Of a stretch of 33,424 bases of DNA, positions 25,752 through 32,441 are shown in pieces. Position numbers and translations under genes: made by a program. The stretch lies in the NCBI GenBank assembly GCA_017547655.1, contig JAFYPF010000010.1, positions 1 to 33,424 on the forward strand. Direction: 5' to 3'. Position 1 is the first letter of the stretch, and each line of letters opens with the position of its first letter. A model generated the notes under the pieces. The model was not told where the DNA came from. It made no database searches and saw nothing but the letters and a program-made list of their open reading frames with translations. The DNA comes from Clostridia bacterium. GTDB taxonomy: Bacteria > Bacillota > Clostridia > Oscillospirales > CAG-272.

Positions 25752-25779
25752 AATATCCCCCGCTTCTGCGGGGGATATT
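25752..25779 (-). terminator. Terminator of the glmM-glmS operon
   Basis: A perfect 12-bp stem, AATATCCCCCGC (25752-25763) with GCGGGGGATATT (25768-25779), tetraloop TTCT. On the minus strand it is followed by GTTTTGC. It lies 8 bp past the glmS stop. Confidence 0.85.
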
Positions 25780-25787
25780 CTACTATA

Positions 25788-27617
25788 TTATTCTACCGTT
25801 ACACTTTTAGCGAGGTTCTTCGGTTTATCGATGTCACAACCCTTCTTTTTGGCTGTGTAGTAACTCAACAGTTGTAGGGGAACTATCTGTAAAGAAACGG
25901 TAAACTGAGGAAGCGTATCGGGAACAATAAAAGTATTCTCAAATTCAGCAATAAGCTCTTTATTTTTATCGGTAGTAACAACAAGCATTTCAGCGCCTCT
26001 TGCCATTACTTCGCAAATGTTGCTATATGTTTTTCCGAATATTTCTCCATCTGCGGCAAGCGCTACAACAGGAACTCCGGGATCAATAAGTGAAAGCGTG
26101 CCGTGCTTCAATTCTCCTGCAGCATAGCTTTCAGAATGTATATAGCTTATTTCTTTCATCTTCAAGGATGCTTCAAGCGCTGTAGCATAGTCAAGCCTTC
26201 TTCCGATAAAATATATATCCGTAGCATTCGCAAACTGTTCGGCATAGATTTCTGCCTTTTCTATATTGCGATCCAACGTCATCTGTATCTTATGAGGAAG
26301 AGCCGCCAACTCGTGTGTCATTCGCTTTTCTTCTTCGGAAGATATTTTCCCGTTGCCTTTTGCAAGTCTTATAGCAAGAGCATAGAGAGCCACAAGCTGC
26401 GCACTATACGCCTTTGTCGTCGCTACGGCAACTTCTCTGCCCGCCTTTGTATATATAACGTTATCGCTCTCATTTGCTATCGCACTTCCGCTCACGTTTA
26501 CTATAGACAATACCTTTGCGCCCTTTTGTTTTGCCAAACGAAGCGCCGCCAAAGTATCTGCCGTTTCACCGCTTTGGCTTATAAACACTGCCAAAGTATG
26601 CTCGTCAATAAGAGGATCTACATATCTGAACTCGGAGGCTATCTCTGCCGAAGCTCTAATGCTGCCCATCGACTCTATAAGAGACTTTCCAACAACACCT
26701 GCATGATATGCTGAACCACAGGCAACAATTACAACCTCTCTCAATTCATTTTTTATATAATCGTCTGTAATATCAACGCCGCCAAGACATATTGCGTTAT
26801 CTTTTATAAGCGGCAATATGGTATCTCTTACTGCATTCGGCTGTTGAAGCATCTCAAGCATCATATAATGCTCGTATCCTTGCTTATCGGCTGTAAGCTC
26901 ACCTACTTCAATCTTTACCGCAGCCTTTTCGATAGGCTGACCGTCATTACCGTAAAATTCTATTTTCTTATCGTTCAATACGCATATCTCACCGTTTTTT
27001 ACAGGATAATATTCACTCGCATAAGCGGAAATAGCCCCAGCATCTGAACAAATAAATCCACAGTCTGCAGTCTTTGCCGCAACCATCGGGCTCGACATCG
27101 CCGTACTGAAAATAGTGTCGGGATAATCAGTACAAAGAATCCCTAATGCATACGAGCCTTTGAGGAGTGATATAACCTTGCTTATCGTTTCCACAACGTT
27201 TCCGTTATAGTACTTCGAAAGAAGATGAACCACCTTTTCTGTATCGGTTTCCGAATTATAACCAACGCCCTCAAGTTCGGTATCCGCAAGCTCATTCGAA
27301 TTTTCAATAATACCGTTATGTACAATAGCAAACTTTCTGTCGTGACTGAAATGAGGATGCGCGTTATCTTCAGAAGGTCCACCGTGTGTTGCCCAACGGG
27401 TATGACCTATACCAACAAAACCATTCAATTTATCTTTTTCTGCCGCTTCACGAAGTCCGGCGAGTCTGCCTACCGTCTTGCTTGATGCAATTATTCCCTT
27501 TTCATCAAAAACCGCAACTCCAGCAGAATCGTAGCCTCTGTATTCCAAACATTCAAGTCCTTTTAAAATATAGGGTACTGCGTTATCACGACCAACCCTT
27601 CCTATAATTCCACACAT
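25788..27617 (-). CDS. glmS: Glutamine-fructose-6-phosphate aminotransferase (isomerizing)
   Basis: A 609-residue GlmS of normal length, making glucosamine-6-phosphate from fructose-6-phosphate and glutamine, the entry step to UDP-GlcNAc and peptidoglycan. The N-terminal Ntn glutaminase begins MCGIIG, so C2 is the nucleophile, with ECLEYRGYDSAG and GHTRWATHG following. Two SIS domains hold the sugar site, with FISQSGETADT and TKAYSAQL in the first and HGTLSLIDPG in the second. The C-terminal KNLAKSVTVE carries the conserved lysine and tail. It starts only 11 nt after the HTH-GlmM stop, with AGTGAGGT as its ribosome site, so the two genes are co-translated from one mRNA. There is no room for the glmS ribozyme found upstream of this gene in many Firmicutes. 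Confidence 0.97.
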   Translation of the reverse strand: MCGIIGRVGRDNAVPYILKGLECLEYRGYDSAGVAVFDEKGIIASSKTVGRLAGLREAAEKDKLNGFVGIGHTRWATHGGPSEDNAHPHFSHDRKFAIVHNGIIENSNELADTELEGVGYNSETDTEKVVHLLSKYYNGNVVETISKVISLLKGSYALGILCTDYPDTIFSTAMSSPMVAAKTADCGFICSDAGAISAYASEYYPVKNGEICVLNDKKIEFYGNDGQPIEKAAVKIEVGELTADKQGYEHYMMLEMLQQPNAVRDTILPLIKDNAICLGGVDITDDYIKNELREVVIVACGSAYHAGVVGKSLIESMGSIRASAEIASEFRYVDPLIDEHTLAVFISQSGETADTLAALRLAKQKGAKVLSIVNVSGSAIANESDNVIYTKAGREVAVATTKAYSAQLVALYALAIRLAKGNGKISSEEEKRMTHELAALPHKIQMTLDRNIEKAEIYAEQFANATDIYFIGRRLDYATALEASLKMKEISYIHSESYAAGELKHGTLSLIDPGVPVVALAADGEIFGKTYSNICEVMARGAEMLVVTTDKNKELIAEFENTFIVPDTLPQFTVSLQIVPLQLLSYYTAKKKGCDIDKPKNLAKSVTVE

Positions 27618-27628
27618 TTTTCAATACC

Positions 27629-29269
27629 TCACTTATCTTTTCGGCTAAGTCCAAGACTGTTTATCAGTTCCTCTACCCTTGCCGTATAGTTTTCACATAC
27701 CTTTTGACTGCCGCTTTCAACCATAATTCTTACAACCGGCTCGGTTCCGCTTTCGCGCAGCAATATTCTGCCGTCATTACCAAGCTCTTTTTTTATTTCA
27801 TCAACTACAGCTTTAACCTGTTCGTTGTTTGCAACAGCCGATTTATCAATAACCTGCACATTTCTTATTGATTGAGGATACATGGTAACAGGATCTGCAA
27901 GTTCACTCAAAACCGCCTTTCTGTCCATCATTTCCTCAAGAAGCATAATTGCTGTCAATATGCCGTCTCCCGTCGTCGCATATTTTCTGATTATCGTATG
28001 CCCCGACTGCTCTCCGCCTAAATAATAGTCGTTTTCTATCATAGCATCGTGTACGTATCTGTCGCCTACTGTCGTCTGTACATATCCGATACCTACTTCG
28101 TCAAGCGCTTTGTATAGTCCCATATTCGACATTATTGTAGTAACTACCTTATTACCAGGCAAAAGTCCTTTATCCCGCAAACGCCTTGCAAGAACATACA
28201 AAACATGATCACCGTTTATGATGTTACCCTTTTCGTCAACCGCTATACATCTGTCAGCATCACCGTCAAACGCAAATCCAACGTCCATCTTGTTCTCTCT
28301 TACATATTTGCGTAACGCACCGATATGCGTGGATCCTGCTTGCTCGTTTATATTAACGCCGTCAGGCTCCGCATTTATAACGTAAACCTGCGCACCAAGC
28401 GCACTAAAAACCGCTTTTGCTATCATCCAAGACGATCCGTTTGCGCAGTCGAGCACTACTTTCATATTTCTGTACGAATTTGCAGCAACTGATATAAGAA
28501 ATCCTACGTATCTGTTTCTTCCCGCAACGTAGTCTATTACACAACCCACTTTTTCGCGTGTAGCTAACGGAAGGTCATCGCCCTCAACGCCAAGCTTTGA
28601 CAGGTCGCCGTCAATATAATCTTCAATCAAAGCAAGCGTGTTATCGTCCATTTTCTCGCCTGCACTGTTTATAAGCTTTATACCGTTATCAAAAAACGGA
28701 TTGTGCGATGCCGATATCATAACGCCGCAATCAAACATATCTTGTCTTACAACGTACGATACGCTCGGAGTTGTCGTAACATGAAGCATATATGCATCTG
28801 CTCCCGAAGACGTTATTCCCGCAACTATCGCATATTCAAGCATATAGCTTGAACGTCTGGTATCCTTTCCGATAACCACCCTTGCTTTTCGGTTATCTGA
28901 ATGTTTTTTTGAATAATACCAGCCCAAAAATCTTCCTATTTTAAATGCATGAATCGCTGTCAGCTTCTCGTTTGCCTCACCTCTGAATCCGTCAGTACCG
29001 AAATATCTGCCGTTAAACACAACTGATTCTTTCGGTCTGAATAAGGTCTCGGTATAAGTAGGAGCCAACGGTATATCGTCTCTCAATAAGTCATCTGTCG
29101 TAACGTTAAATAAAGACGAAAGTTGAAGTATCTTTCCAACCTCCGGAACAGACTGATCCGATTCCCATTTAGATACCGATTGGCGAGAAACCTCAAGTCT
29201 CTCCGCTAACTGTTCTTGCGAAATCTGCATAGCTGTACGAAGTATGGCTATCTTCTGGCCTATTGTCAT
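27629..29269 (-). CDS. glmM: Fusion: XRE-type helix-turn-helix domain + phosphoglucosamine mutase (GlmM)
   Basis: A 546-residue protein in one uninterrupted frame. Residues 1-65 are a complete Cro/C1-type helix-turn-helix domain, with SQEQLAERLEVSRQSVSKWE as the DNA-reading region and a typical FNVTTDDLL end. A linker of about 20 residues follows. From about 87 (GRYFGTDGFRG) it is a full-length GlmM: the phosphorylated serine S188 in SASHNP, metal-binding DGDADR (335-340), sugar-loop GGEQSGH (418-424) and the phosphate-binding RESGTEP (505-511). GlmM converts glucosamine-6-P to glucosamine-1-P and is normally about 450 residues without a DNA-binding domain. GGAGGG lies 7 nt before the HTH start, while only a GTG without a clear ribosome site precedes the mutase. 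It lies 11 nt upstream of glmS. It may regulate its own operon (inference). Confidence 0.93.
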   Translation of the reverse strand: MTIGQKIAILRTAMQISQEQLAERLEVSRQSVSKWESDQSVPEVGKILQLSSLFNVTTDDLLRDDIPLAPTYTETLFRPKESVVFNGRYFGTDGFRGEANEKLTAIHAFKIGRFLGWYYSKKHSDNRKARVVIGKDTRRSSYMLEYAIVAGITSSGADAYMLHVTTTPSVSYVVRQDMFDCGVMISASHNPFFDNGIKLINSAGEKMDDNTLALIEDYIDGDLSKLGVEGDDLPLATREKVGCVIDYVAGRNRYVGFLISVAANSYRNMKVVLDCANGSSWMIAKAVFSALGAQVYVINAEPDGVNINEQAGSTHIGALRKYVRENKMDVGFAFDGDADRCIAVDEKGNIINGDHVLYVLARRLRDKGLLPGNKVVTTIMSNMGLYKALDEVGIGYVQTTVGDRYVHDAMIENDYYLGGEQSGHTIIRKYATTGDGILTAIMLLEEMMDRKAVLSELADPVTMYPQSIRNVQVIDKSAVANNEQVKAVVDEIKKELGNDGRILLRESGTEPVVRIMVESGSQKVCENYTARVEELINSLGLSRKDK

Positions 29270-29368
29270 TATCTTCCCTCCGAGTAGTTATATTCCACAA
29301 TTATATAAGAATGGATAACATCAAATATTCACACAACAAAATCCGACACATCCACGCTTATTTTTATT

Positions 29369-29398
29369 ATTATACTCCAATTCATATACATCCGTCAA
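29369..29398 (-). promoter_or_regulatory. Promoter of the glmM-glmS operon
   Basis: On the minus strand TTGACG (29393-29398), an 18-bp spacer, then TATAAT (29369-29374), giving a leader of about 95 nt before the HTH-GlmM start. Confidence 0.65.
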
Positions 29399-29406
29399 GC
29401 AACCAA

Positions 29407-29461
29407 GGTTGATATTTTTTTGTCAACCCCGAGTTGCGAAACAACATTTTTCCGCAACTCG
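29407..29461. promoter_or_regulatory. Two tandem inverted repeats upstream of the glmM promoter
   Basis: GGTTGA (29407-29412) pairs with TCAACC (29423-29428), and CGAGTTGCG (29430-29438) pairs with CGCAACTCG (29453-29461). The first ends 9 bp before the -35 box. They are candidate operator or terminator sites and natural targets to test for the HTH-GlmM protein. The rest of the 29270-29634 gap is AT-rich leader plus the terminator of the upstream operon. Confidence 0.4.
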
Positions 29462-29555
29462 ACAACAAAAAGTACGCTTATCAAGCGAATTTTCTTAAAA
29501 TTTCAATCTGCCTACAAACCCAACACTCATAGTTGACATAATCTATAAAAATCAT

Positions 29556-29584
29556 AGGGGATATGGGCAAAGACCATATCCCCT
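29556..29584 (-). terminator. Terminator of the CNNM/HlyC operon
   Basis: An 11-bp perfect stem, AGGGGATATGG (29556-29566) with CCATATCCCCT (29574-29584). On the minus strand a TGATTTTTA tract follows. Confidence 0.75.
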
Positions 29585-29634: not shown

Positions 29635-30987
29635 TCATTCCTCTGTTTTCTCTTTTTCCTCGGGTAACATTCTTCTTACAAGAACGGTAAGCTTCTTTAT
29701 ACGCATATCTTCCATTCCCGACACAATAACGTAAAGTTCCGTATGACCTTCATAGTCCTCGTCTTCTACATCTTGTTCGCCAAGGTCAGAATAGTTGAAG
29801 TTATCACCTACGTGAGGATCGGCATTAAGCATCTCAATAGCCCATCCGCCAACCGTCGAATACTCACACTCAAAGTTTTTCGGCTCAAATTCTATCTCTG
29901 CGAAAAAGTCTTCGATATTCATATCACCCGATACTTCATAAGTATTGTTACCGGTCTTAACAAATTCGTTTACTATTTCGTCAGATTCATCCCAAATCTC
30001 ACCAACAAGCTCTTCGAGTATATCCTCAATCGTTACAACACCCATAGTGCCGCCGTATTCGTCAACCACTATCGCTAAATGCATCTTTCTTTCACGGAGT
30101 ATGTTCAACGCTCTGTTTAACTTCATAGTCTTATGAATAAAGCAAGGTTCCATAAGAAGCTGTCTTAAATCCGTCTTATTCTTTACACCGGAGCCCGTTA
30201 TCTTTCTGTAATAACGGTTAAGGTAAAGCACACCTATAATATCGTCAATTGACTCATCATATACGGGAATACGTGAAAAACGTGAATTTTCCGCAATATA
30301 ACTTAATTTTTCCAATGAATGTGTAATATCAAAGGAAAGCATATCAATTCTTGGTGTCATTATCTCTTCAACGGTAGTTTCGCGAAACGTAATTGCAGAC
30401 TGCAAAAGCTCTTTCTTCTCTTCGTCAATTACGCCCTCTTCTTCAACCGTCTCAATAATCGAAGAAAGCTCTTCTTCTGTTACGGTAGGAGCATCCTCGT
30501 CATCTTTACCCCATAGCTTTTCAAGTCCCTTTATAAGAGCCATTACAAGCCATACGAGAGGATATAAAATCCACTTAACAGCAGTAATAACATACGCAAA
30601 AAAGTAAACCATTACATCTGCGTTGTTTTTTGCAACAAGCTTCGGAACTATCTCGCCAAAAATAAGTATAATAACGGTCATTACAACGGTAGATGCGATA
30701 GAAGCAATACTATCCCCGTTGTTCATATCCTGAAACATCAGAATAGCAATAACAGTCGCAGCTGTGGTACAAGCTATGTTTGCAAGGTTATTACCGATAA
30801 GTATAGCCGAAAGCGAAGTATTAAAGTTCTCAATAATACCATAAGCAAGTGTTGCGGATTTGTTTCCCGCCTCGCTTGCTTTTTTCAAGCGCTTTTTGTT
30901 AGCGGAATTAAAACATATTTCAGCTGCGGAAAAACATGCCGAAAGCGCAACCATCAGCACAATAATTACAATATTCTTTATATACAT
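29635..30987 (-). CDS. CNNM/HlyC-family transporter (DUF21-CBS-CBS-CorC_HlyC), second paralog
   Basis: A 450-residue protein. An N-terminal DUF21 membrane domain (about 1-170) begins with FSAAEICFNSANKKRLKK. A CBS pair follows (about 200-325, with EEIMTPRIDMLS and VDEYGGTMGVVTIEDILEELVGEIWDE), then a C-terminal CorC_HlyC domain (about 340-430, with VGGWAIEML and the acidic EDEDYEG). The family was named for haemolysin C, but members are now seen mainly as Mg2+/Co2+ exporters or regulators of divalent-cation flux. GGGGGAATAG precedes the ATG, 14 nt after the upstream paralog's stop, so the two form one operon and may act as a heteromer. Confidence 0.9.
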   Translation of the reverse strand: MYIKNIVIIVLMVALSACFSAAEICFNSANKKRLKKASEAGNKSATLAYGIIENFNTSLSAILIGNNLANIACTTAATVIAILMFQDMNNGDSIASIASTVVMTVIILIFGEIVPKLVAKNNADVMVYFFAYVITAVKWILYPLVWLVMALIKGLEKLWGKDDEDAPTVTEEELSSIIETVEEEGVIDEEKKELLQSAITFRETTVEEIMTPRIDMLSFDITHSLEKLSYIAENSRFSRIPVYDESIDDIIGVLYLNRYYRKITGSGVKNKTDLRQLLMEPCFIHKTMKLNRALNILRERKMHLAIVVDEYGGTMGVVTIEDILEELVGEIWDESDEIVNEFVKTGNNTYEVSGDMNIEDFFAEIEFEPKNFECEYSTVGGWAIEMLNADPHVGDNFNYSDLGEQDVEDEDYEGHTELYVIVSGMEDMRIKKLTVLVRRMLPEEKEKTEE

Positions 30988-31001
30988 ATTCTATTCCCCC
31001 T

Positions 31002-32318
31002 TCACACAGCCGAAGAACTTTCGGTCTTACCCAAAAGCTCTGCTATCTCTGCAGGAGATAGAAGTCTGATTACTACATTTTTTACGAGATTACTTTCGAC
31101 AACATCAACCGTAATTTCCATATTACGATATACGAAAGACTCTTCTTCCTCCGGAATTCTTCCGAAGTGTTCAATCACTATTGAAAGCAAAGGTCTGTCA
31201 AAATCTTGGTCACGACGGTGGTTAAGACCGAGACGCTTGTAAATTTCTCCCATTTTCAAGTGAGTATTTACCTGCGTTCTGTTTCCGCCAAGCTTTACAA
31301 AATCGTTGTCAACAACATCATCCTCGTCCCAGATTTCACCAACAAGCTCCTCAAGGAAGTCTTCTATGGTAACAAGCCCCAAAGTCTTGCCGTTTTCCGA
31401 GACAATACCGAGATAAAACTTATGCTGACGCATTTCCGTAAGCAAATCCTCAATCATAGCATCGGGTTTCACCTTATATGCCGGCATAACCAATTTTTTT
31501 ATATCAACCTCGGGATCCTTCAAATATGCCTTAATAAAAGTTCTTATTTGAATTACACCGATTATATTATTTAGATCTCCTTCATACACCGGAAGTCGTG
31601 TGTGAACAGATTTACGGATAAACGAAAGCAATTCATCATTTGGAAGCGATACGTCAACAGAAACTATATCGTCCCTCATTGTCATAACGTCCCTTGCCGA
31701 TATTCCCGAAAAGTCAAGTGCCGATTTCATAAGATCGCCTTGCTCTTCATTCACTACGCCCTCTTCTTCGATAGTATCAATTATTTCATAAAGCTCCTCT
31801 TCCGTAATCGACGGTTGAGTCTCCTGCTTTACAAACCTTGATATCAATTTCATAAAAAGGTTTGATATCCACTCAAAAAATACCGCAAAAGGATACAAAA
31901 TCTTCATCAAGAACCTTAAAGAATTTGAAAATGCCAATGCCGTAGATTCACTTCTGTCATTTGCAAAACTTTTGGGTATCATCTCACTGAAAAGGAATAC
32001 TATAAAAGTAGTCACAACAGTACACATCCAAGTAACAGTATCGGTCATCTCAAACATTCTGGAACAAATAAGAGTAGCCACCGATGCCGCCGCAATATGT
32101 GTAATGTTGTTTCCGATAAGCAACGTCGTCAGAGCCTTTTCAAAGTTGTTCGACACAAACATTGCATTCTTTGCTTTTTTGTCTCCGTTGTCTGCCTTTG
32201 ATTTAATACGAATCTTGTTCATTGCGGAAAATGCGCTCTCGGCTCCGCCGAAATATCCGCCTCCCACAACAAATAAAATGAATAATAGGACCAGAACCGC
32301 TATACCCGAAGAGTTCAT
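31002..32318 (-). CDS. CNNM/HlyC-family transporter (DUF21-CBS-CBS-CorC_HlyC), first paralog
   Basis: A 438-residue paralog of the next gene with the same order of domains: DUF21 membrane domain (GGGYFGGAESAFSAMNKIRIK near the start), CBS pair (ARDVMTMRDDIVSVDV, then TLGLVTIEDFLEELVGEIWDED) and CorC_HlyC tail. The ATG at 32318 was chosen because GGAGGG lies 4 nt before it and the N-terminus then matches family length. The frame continues up to a GTG at 32396 or an ATG at 32384 without as good a ribosome site, adding a polar segment of 22-26 residues. Its core sequence differs enough from the next gene to suggest an old duplication. Divalent-cation transport is inferred from the family. Confidence 0.9.
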   Translation of the reverse strand: MNSSGIAVLVLLFILFVVGGGYFGGAESAFSAMNKIRIKSKADNGDKKAKNAMFVSNNFEKALTTLLIGNNITHIAAASVATLICSRMFEMTDTVTWMCTVVTTFIVFLFSEMIPKSFANDRSESTALAFSNSLRFLMKILYPFAVFFEWISNLFMKLISRFVKQETQPSITEEELYEIIDTIEEEGVVNEEQGDLMKSALDFSGISARDVMTMRDDIVSVDVSLPNDELLSFIRKSVHTRLPVYEGDLNNIIGVIQIRTFIKAYLKDPEVDIKKLVMPAYKVKPDAMIEDLLTEMRQHKFYLGIVSENGKTLGLVTIEDFLEELVGEIWDEDDVVDNDFVKLGGNRTQVNTHLKMGEIYKRLGLNHRRDQDFDRPLLSIVIEHFGRIPEEEESFVYRNMEITVDVVESNLVKNVVIRLLSPAEIAELLGKTESSSAV

Positions 32319-32441
32319 ATTACCCTCCGCAGTTTTCTCGAGCGCTCTGTAAATTAAGCCCTGTATATTCCCGTCCGCGTCCATGAAAAATTTCACTTCT
32401 CTTTCAAAAAATAATTATTCGTGTTTACACACGTAAATATC

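Follow-up and report, generated by a model that had tools for sequence, protein, structure and literature searches.

The window, i.e. the whole 33,424 nt stretch of DNA analysed here, carries on its minus strand a gene (HTH-glmM) whose single reading frame joins a DNA-binding domain to a complete phosphoglucosamine mutase, and which is followed by glmS (Table 1). The coordinates confirm that 11 nt separate the two genes, as originally predicted. Domain searches likewise bear out the prediction that a complete XRE helix-turn-helix (HTH) domain lies in frame with a full GlmM: Pfam HTH_3 matches at 47.2 bits (cut-off 23), which assigns the N-terminal domain to the XRE/Cro-C1 type, all four PGM_PMM domains (I-IV) score above their Pfam cut-offs, and the NCBIfam GlmM equivalog TIGR01455 matches residues 90-537 at 519.8 bits (cut-off 447.55). 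The catalytic serine, metal, sugar, and phosphate motifs of GlmM are all present in the sequence, and one chain thus holds both an enzyme and a DNA-binding domain. We take the recognition helix of the fused HTH to lie at approximately SRQSVSKWE (residues 28-36).

Table 1. Features of the HTH-glmM locus; positions are those of the window.
Feature	Position	Strand	Evidence or remark
Terminator-like hairpin after glmS	25752..25779	(-)	hairpin scan
glmS, likely same operon, downstream	25788..27617	(-)	TIGR01135, 683.8 bits
HTH-GlmM fusion gene	27629..29269	(-)	546 aa, ATG start; ORF, Pfam, and NCBIfam
GlmM catalytic region, residues 88-537	27659..29008	(-)	SASHNP, DGDADR, GEQSGH, and RESGTE motifs
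Linker, residues 66-87	29009..29074	(-)	non-conserved between relatives
XRE/Cro-C1 HTH, residues 1-65	29075..29269	(-)	Pfam HTH_3 at residues 8-61
Ribosome-binding site GGAGGG ahead of HTH start	29276..29281	(-)	sequence reading
Promoter TTGACG-18-TATAAT, 11/12 consensus	29369..29398	(-)	consensus scan
Putative operator site 2, CAACCTTGGTTG	29400..29411	(-)	adjoins -35; two-site element 29400-29436
Putative operator site 1, GCAACTCGGGGTTGA	29423..29437	(-)	one mismatch to GCAACYNNNRGTTGC
Terminator-like hairpin after upstream CNNM/CBS genes	29556..29584	(-)	likely upstream operon edge

Given a near-consensus promoter and terminator-like hairpins on both sides, glmM-glmS reads as one transcription unit. 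The promoter is the best of 13 consensus matches in the scan (chance alone would give 9.8 at its threshold), and eight terminator-like hairpins were found against 2.7 expected by chance. Two tandem genes for CNNM/CBS/CorC-type membrane proteins lie upstream (29635-32396, minus strand) and appear ordinary, with a terminator-like hairpin between them and the operon. A search of the window genome (1.39 Mb in 36 contigs, 84.6% complete) returned no second GlmM at E ≤ 1e-80, and it is most likely, as judged from gene content, that the fusion carries out the essential reaction there. An acetyltransferase gene was not found in this incomplete genome with a distant query.

Searching for proteins that combine an HTH with GlmM, as had been suggested for this locus, revealed a conserved family in MAGs of Clostridia and Bacilli. 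The in-frame fusion recurs in four more genomes of the genus and two other genera (39 genomes, the window's own included), in at least 49 of the 295 genomes of the window's family (counted by matches from residue 1), and in at least 14 other genomes, belonging to six other families, among 391 of the class; in the family genomes G280 and G178 the match spans just the first 346 and 330 residues. Because the fusion is repeated across relatives, chance or an assembly artefact can be dismissed. In a scan of named genomes the carriers were MAGs, many of ruminant gut origin, with labels of Clostridia or its subgroups and, more distantly, of Bacillales, Erysipelotrichaceae, or Bacilli; no other scan brought up carriers in Bacilli. 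A sample of 398 genomes from the phylum held, at E ≤ 1e-150, no fusion other than the window genome's own. Altogether at least 64 fusion loci were found in the family and class samples, 61 of which were read in detail (G178, G327, and G616 were left out). A maximum-likelihood tree was built from the GlmM portion, without L112, which a contig end truncates, and without two non-fusion rows that were short or contained a stop. In it, 60 fusions cluster together, apart from 38 non-fusions and 8 outgroups. This grouping requires one change and has a modest SH-aLRT of 83, and none of the 38 HTH-less GlmMs falls inside it, a pattern which suggests that the fusion probably arose once.

Across the 61 fusion loci, mean pairwise identity reaches 69% for GlmM and 61% for the HTH and falls to 13% for the linker, and Q18, R29, W35, and E36 of the HTH are invariant in 61/61. 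Every locus that is not truncated keeps the four catalytic motifs, with minor changes beside key residues (for example, DGDCDR in 11 loci and GEQTGH in one). A Shine-Dalgarno-like 4-mer stands ahead of the HTH start at 57/61 loci, in line with the good ribosome site (GGAGGG) anticipated there in the window, and translation from the HTH is thereby supported at the level of sequence. The opposite case, raised alongside the original prediction, is that the HTH is vestigial and that GlmM is made from an internal start. Some start codon does occur within the 22 codons before the GlmM domain at 28/61 loci, and the window has both a TTG and a GTG in that stretch, the GTG lying five codons before YFGTDG. 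However, an internal start with a Shine-Dalgarno-like 4-mer was seen at just 2/61 loci, against the 57 that have one before the HTH, and the identity and invariant residues of the HTH speak against a relic; we regard this case as so improbable as to deserve hardly any weight.

Side-by-side reading of the regions upstream of the fusions is how a shared palindrome was first noticed. With at most one mismatch and within 250 nt upstream, GCAACYNNNRGTTGC is present at 57 of the 61 fusion loci (43 exact; absent at this tolerance from L074, L082, L093, and L096) and at 0/40 non-fusion glmM loci, where the best match has three mismatches; these 40 are a non-random set with 52-66% identity to the query, which includes paralogues from genomes with both kinds of GlmM and two loci (L189 and L205) with unsure start sites. 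Only one further copy was found in the 454,960 nt of the fusion loci, at -275 of another fusion gene, and the 271,998 nt of the non-fusion loci hold four copies, none within 250 nt upstream of glmM. For a reversed control motif, the counts are 0/61 upstream stretches and five copies elsewhere. Among 41 further named loci, which include near-copies and are phylogenetically non-independent (five duplicates and L269, with 6 nt upstream, were left out), the palindrome precedes the fusion in 27/30 Clostridia and 6/11 Bacilli, the other three and five being without a site at up to one mismatch. In the window, this putative operator falls inside the stretch 29270-29470 that had been proposed as the target for DNA binding, at the fusion's own promoter. 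A cognate palindromic operator at its own promoter, taken as a mark of XRE regulators, is thus predicted for HTH-GlmM by comparison among loci.

In Clostridia, a weaker second copy lies approximately 23 bp downstream of site 1, beside the -35 hexamer, and the -10 hexamer is usually found 60-63 nt past the start of site 1 (58 rows). The operator is therefore upstream of the predicted transcription start, which makes it an element of the DNA and not of a leader RNA. Searched as a two-site pattern, it has a single match in the window genome, at the fusion's own promoter; 34/63 fusion genomes have a match, 30 of them at the fusion's promoter, compared with 2/17 non-fusion genomes that match anywhere and 0/80 genomes for a reversed control. 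The exact palindrome occurs genome-wide in 63 copies in 52 of 63 fusion genomes (0-3 per genome) and in 31 copies in 28 non-fusion genomes (0-11 per genome). Since the palindrome is about equally frequent in both kinds of genome, it is its place, not its number, that tracks the fusion. The largest number of exact palindromes in any of the 80 genomes searched (11) is that of G010, which has no fusion.

Several XRE genes without GlmM (L331, L332, L333, L351, and L337) have a two-site promoter of the same type, with CAAC-N5-GTTG present twice. This sharing suggests, by sequence resemblance, an operator code common to this HTH subgroup, and such stand-alone XRE genes are a possible source of the fused domain. 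It also means that another XRE protein of the cell could bind the palindrome, in which case the HTH of the fusion would be a passenger. Similar two-site promoters at other XRE genes of these genomes, and the presence of the palindrome in genomes that lack the fusion, are compatible with such a passenger, but the operator at glmM tracks the HTH (57/61 vs 0/40), and the presumed recognition helix is near invariant across the 61 fusions; a passenger HTH is thus very unlikely.

Where the operator sits relative to the promoter bears on the direction of control. At six Bacilli loci it begins 26-33 nt before the ATG, just after the -10 hexamer as judged by eye. Bacilli loci such as L252, L256, L260-L262, L264, L266, and L268 share, again by eye, a motif resembling GTAAA-N5-GTT near -35, which is possibly a diverged site 2. 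Sites centred at about -42 and -65 have a geometry like that of an activator, as in the lambda cI/PRM layout, and HTH-GlmM could accordingly be an autoactivator that recruits RNA polymerase from its operator, a reading with which the regular spacing of site 1, site 2, and -10 in most of the 58 rows agrees. The window promoter, on the other hand, is near consensus unaided (11/12), and the six Bacilli palindromes lie past -10, where binding should block; we consider autoactivation unlikely. As a site 2 beside -35 fits repression, and binding just past -10 in Bacilli should block, operator placement in these sequences favours repression of the fusion's own operon, and HTH-GlmM is probably a repressor rather than an activator.

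The operon itself varies among relatives. An acetyltransferase gene adjoins the fusion in 48/59 loci of the first set (two loci with less than 400 nt downstream were left out), 26/30 further Clostridia loci, and 11/11 Bacilli loci; its product, a left-handed beta-helix protein, is similar to the acetyltransferase half of archaeal GlmU and matches TIGR03992 across positions 210-389 of 393 with 148 bits, short of the whole-protein cut-off of 292. For nagB within the read stretch the corresponding counts are 14/59, 14/30, and 8/11, and for glmS adjacent to the fusion 5/59, 1/30, and 0/11. From gene order, the common operon thus appears to join HTH-glmM to the gene of a presumed GlcN1P acetyltransferase, nagB being an optional third member; in the window's clade glmS takes their place. 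Of the predicted link between glmM and glmS, the adjacency in the window stands, but a conserved pairing is rejected, since it is mostly specific to the window's clade and the acetyltransferase gene is by far the more frequent neighbour.

Copies of the operator also occur in trans. They were found before glmS in G260, as a two-site operator 94 nt before nagB in G259 (TIGR00502, 296 bits; cut-off 236.9), and before a PPi-dependent phosphofructokinase gene in G157 (L306), which has a promoter like that of HTH-glmM. A promoter similar to the latter lies near a contig end in G056 (L310), where the contig stops before any target gene; G157 and G056 each also carry a second GlmM without an HTH. G260 has one more exact palindrome, with no clear second site, in the interval from an SDR oxidoreductase gene to a contig-cut nagA, and weaker versions of the operator were seen by eye before glmS in G005 and G175. 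As annotated, the targets in trans are mostly genes of the branch from fructose-6-phosphate to amino sugars. There is no sign of a large regulon, with 0-3 exact palindromes per fusion genome and several of the extra copies inside ORFs or before XRE genes.

These sites also bear on whether the regulator would sense anything. HTH-GlmM might be a constitutive autorepressor, with an HTH that does no more than stabilise the amount of enzyme and responds to no metabolite; this would fit a two-site element that occurs in the window genome solely at the fusion's own promoter, and an unconserved linker, in which nothing points to a dedicated signalling route. Conversely, fusion of the HTH to a pathway enzyme, where a free repressor would have served, suggests control at the level of the pathway, as do the copies in trans at glmS, nagB, and the phosphofructokinase gene in relatives. 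We regard constitutive autorepression as a realistic possibility, although one well short of probable.

The supply of glucosamine-6-phosphate can also be controlled by the glmS ribozyme. No RF00234 match above the gathering score was found in the window, the glmM-glmS leader, or the window genome, in agreement with the earlier reading of the leader as ribozyme-free; with the genome 84.6% complete, absence from it is not absolute. At E ≤ 1e-60, glmS was detected in 129/295 family genomes, and among these the ribozyme is present in 2/21 with the fusion and 56/108 without it (Fisher p=2.5e-4); over all family genomes the counts are 3/49 listed fusion and 65/246 non-fusion genomes (p=0.0013). While this raw contrast is strong, it vanishes in a Cochran-Mantel-Haenszel test over genera (chi2 0.18), in which five genera hold both states and two have any ribozyme, g86 agreeing and g53 disagreeing with the contrast. 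The proposed role of the fusion as a stand-in for the ribozyme is therefore borne out by the raw counts but fails on stratification by genus, and 52/108 glmS-positive non-fusion genomes also lack the ribozyme; as a general rule we reject it as confounded by kinship. For the window's clade it is plausible that protein control has taken over from RNA control, without this amounting to a rule.

When 40 fusion genomes, among them all 28 with glmS, were searched more sensitively, the ribozyme turned up in three (G082, G233, and G300, the last with no glmS detected). Ten genomes have a ribozyme without a detected glmS, which indicates that assembly gaps affect the counts. Where glmS lies downstream of glmM, a ribozyme stands between the two in 0/9 fusion and 10/24 non-fusion loci (Fisher p=0.03; coordinates of the 24 loci were compiled by hand from the rows listed). 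The gene glmS itself was found in 21 of the 49 listed family fusion genomes, and in 28/63 fusion genomes overall. It went undetected in 166/295 family genomes (77/152 when completeness is ≥ 90% and contamination ≤ 5%), namely 28/49 listed fusion and 138/246 non-fusion genomes, which gives no sign that the fusion is a consequence of glmS loss. Where the HTH-glmM operon includes nagB, the reverse NagB reaction may supply glucosamine-6-phosphate.

A matching operator at the promoter in nearly all Clostridia fusion loci read, and in about half of the Bacilli ones, leads us to propose that HTH-GlmM is very probably a DNA-binding autoregulator, and quite likely both an active phosphoglucosamine mutase and a transcription regulator of its own operon; a role as an autoregulated enzyme-regulator of amino-sugar supply is, from these comparisons, very likely. 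B. subtilis GlmM dimerises through domain 1, and its domain 4 is described as flexible between structures (PMC8573169, in excerpt). Since a linker whose length varies ties the HTH to domain 1, a dimer of this published kind could offer two HTHs to the two-fold operator, and by analogy the flexibility of domain 4 is a possible route to ligand-dependent DNA affinity. Bound to site 1 and to site 2 beside -35, HTH-GlmM would repress transcription of glmM-glmS in the window, and in most relatives that of the glmM-acetyltransferase unit with or without nagB. Amino-sugar phosphates in the active site, or the state of the catalytic phosphoserine, may shift DNA affinity, and operon output would thereby follow demand for UDP-GlcNAc. 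That regulator activity is coupled to substrate or product in this way has, in our judgement, not quite an even chance. We also put forward, more tentatively, that HTH-GlmM would be the protein equivalent of the glmS ribozyme: in the active enzyme, substrate occupancy or phosphoserine state would directly set the protein's own DNA binding and so control entry of fructose-6-phosphate into cell-wall precursors. Pooled over the family, its regulon would reach the branch point, with glmS or nagB at the entry, followed by glmM and the acetyltransferase, and with the competing phosphofructokinase added in one genome.

To our knowledge, enzymes with a DNA-binding domain that repress their own operon are few (BirA and PutA); ligand coupling is established for both of these, whereas for HTH-GlmM we infer it. 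In BirA (an HTH-biotin ligase) and PutA (a DNA-binding proline dehydrogenase) one chain is likewise described as metabolic enzyme and own-operon repressor (PMC6978683; BirA also PMC5882156; both in excerpt), but the enzyme, the pathway, and the DNA-binding domain, which is XRE in HTH-GlmM, are different. Enzyme-repressors of this kind are thus already known, and no report of HTH-GlmM was found in the titles or abstract openings of the openly licensed papers searched. The glmS ribozyme (RF00234) is RNA in the transcript, whereas the HTH-GlmM element is part of the DNA ahead of the promoter and presumably works together with a protein. NagR/YvoA (GntR/HutC) also represses amino-sugar genes, those of GlcNAc utilisation, with effectors that lift repression (PMC4333415, in excerpt); unlike HTH-GlmM, it is a stand-alone GntR regulator of catabolism with no enzyme domain. 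A second, regulatory role of GlmM is described for GlmM-CdaA in Bacillota, where GlmM acts by protein contact on the cyclase and has no HTH in the account excerpted (PMC8573169). Autorepressors of the Cro/C1 type share the XRE HTH, and similar two-site promoters precede XRE genes of these genomes, but in HTH-GlmM the HTH is accompanied by an entire metabolic enzyme. As a family widespread in gut Clostridia and Bacilli, HTH-GlmM would extend the enzyme-repressors to the essential UDP-GlcNAc pathway, and would offer an answer to how amino-sugar supply may be controlled in bacteria without the glmS ribozyme or without glmS; its operator, being defined from sequence, is directly testable.

Several fusion genomes have a glmS with neither a link to the fusion nor an operator. 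At L129, L131, L133, and L134, glmS was seen by eye directly after genes with guaA- or purB-like C-termini, and glmS may ride in purine operons in several fusion genomes.
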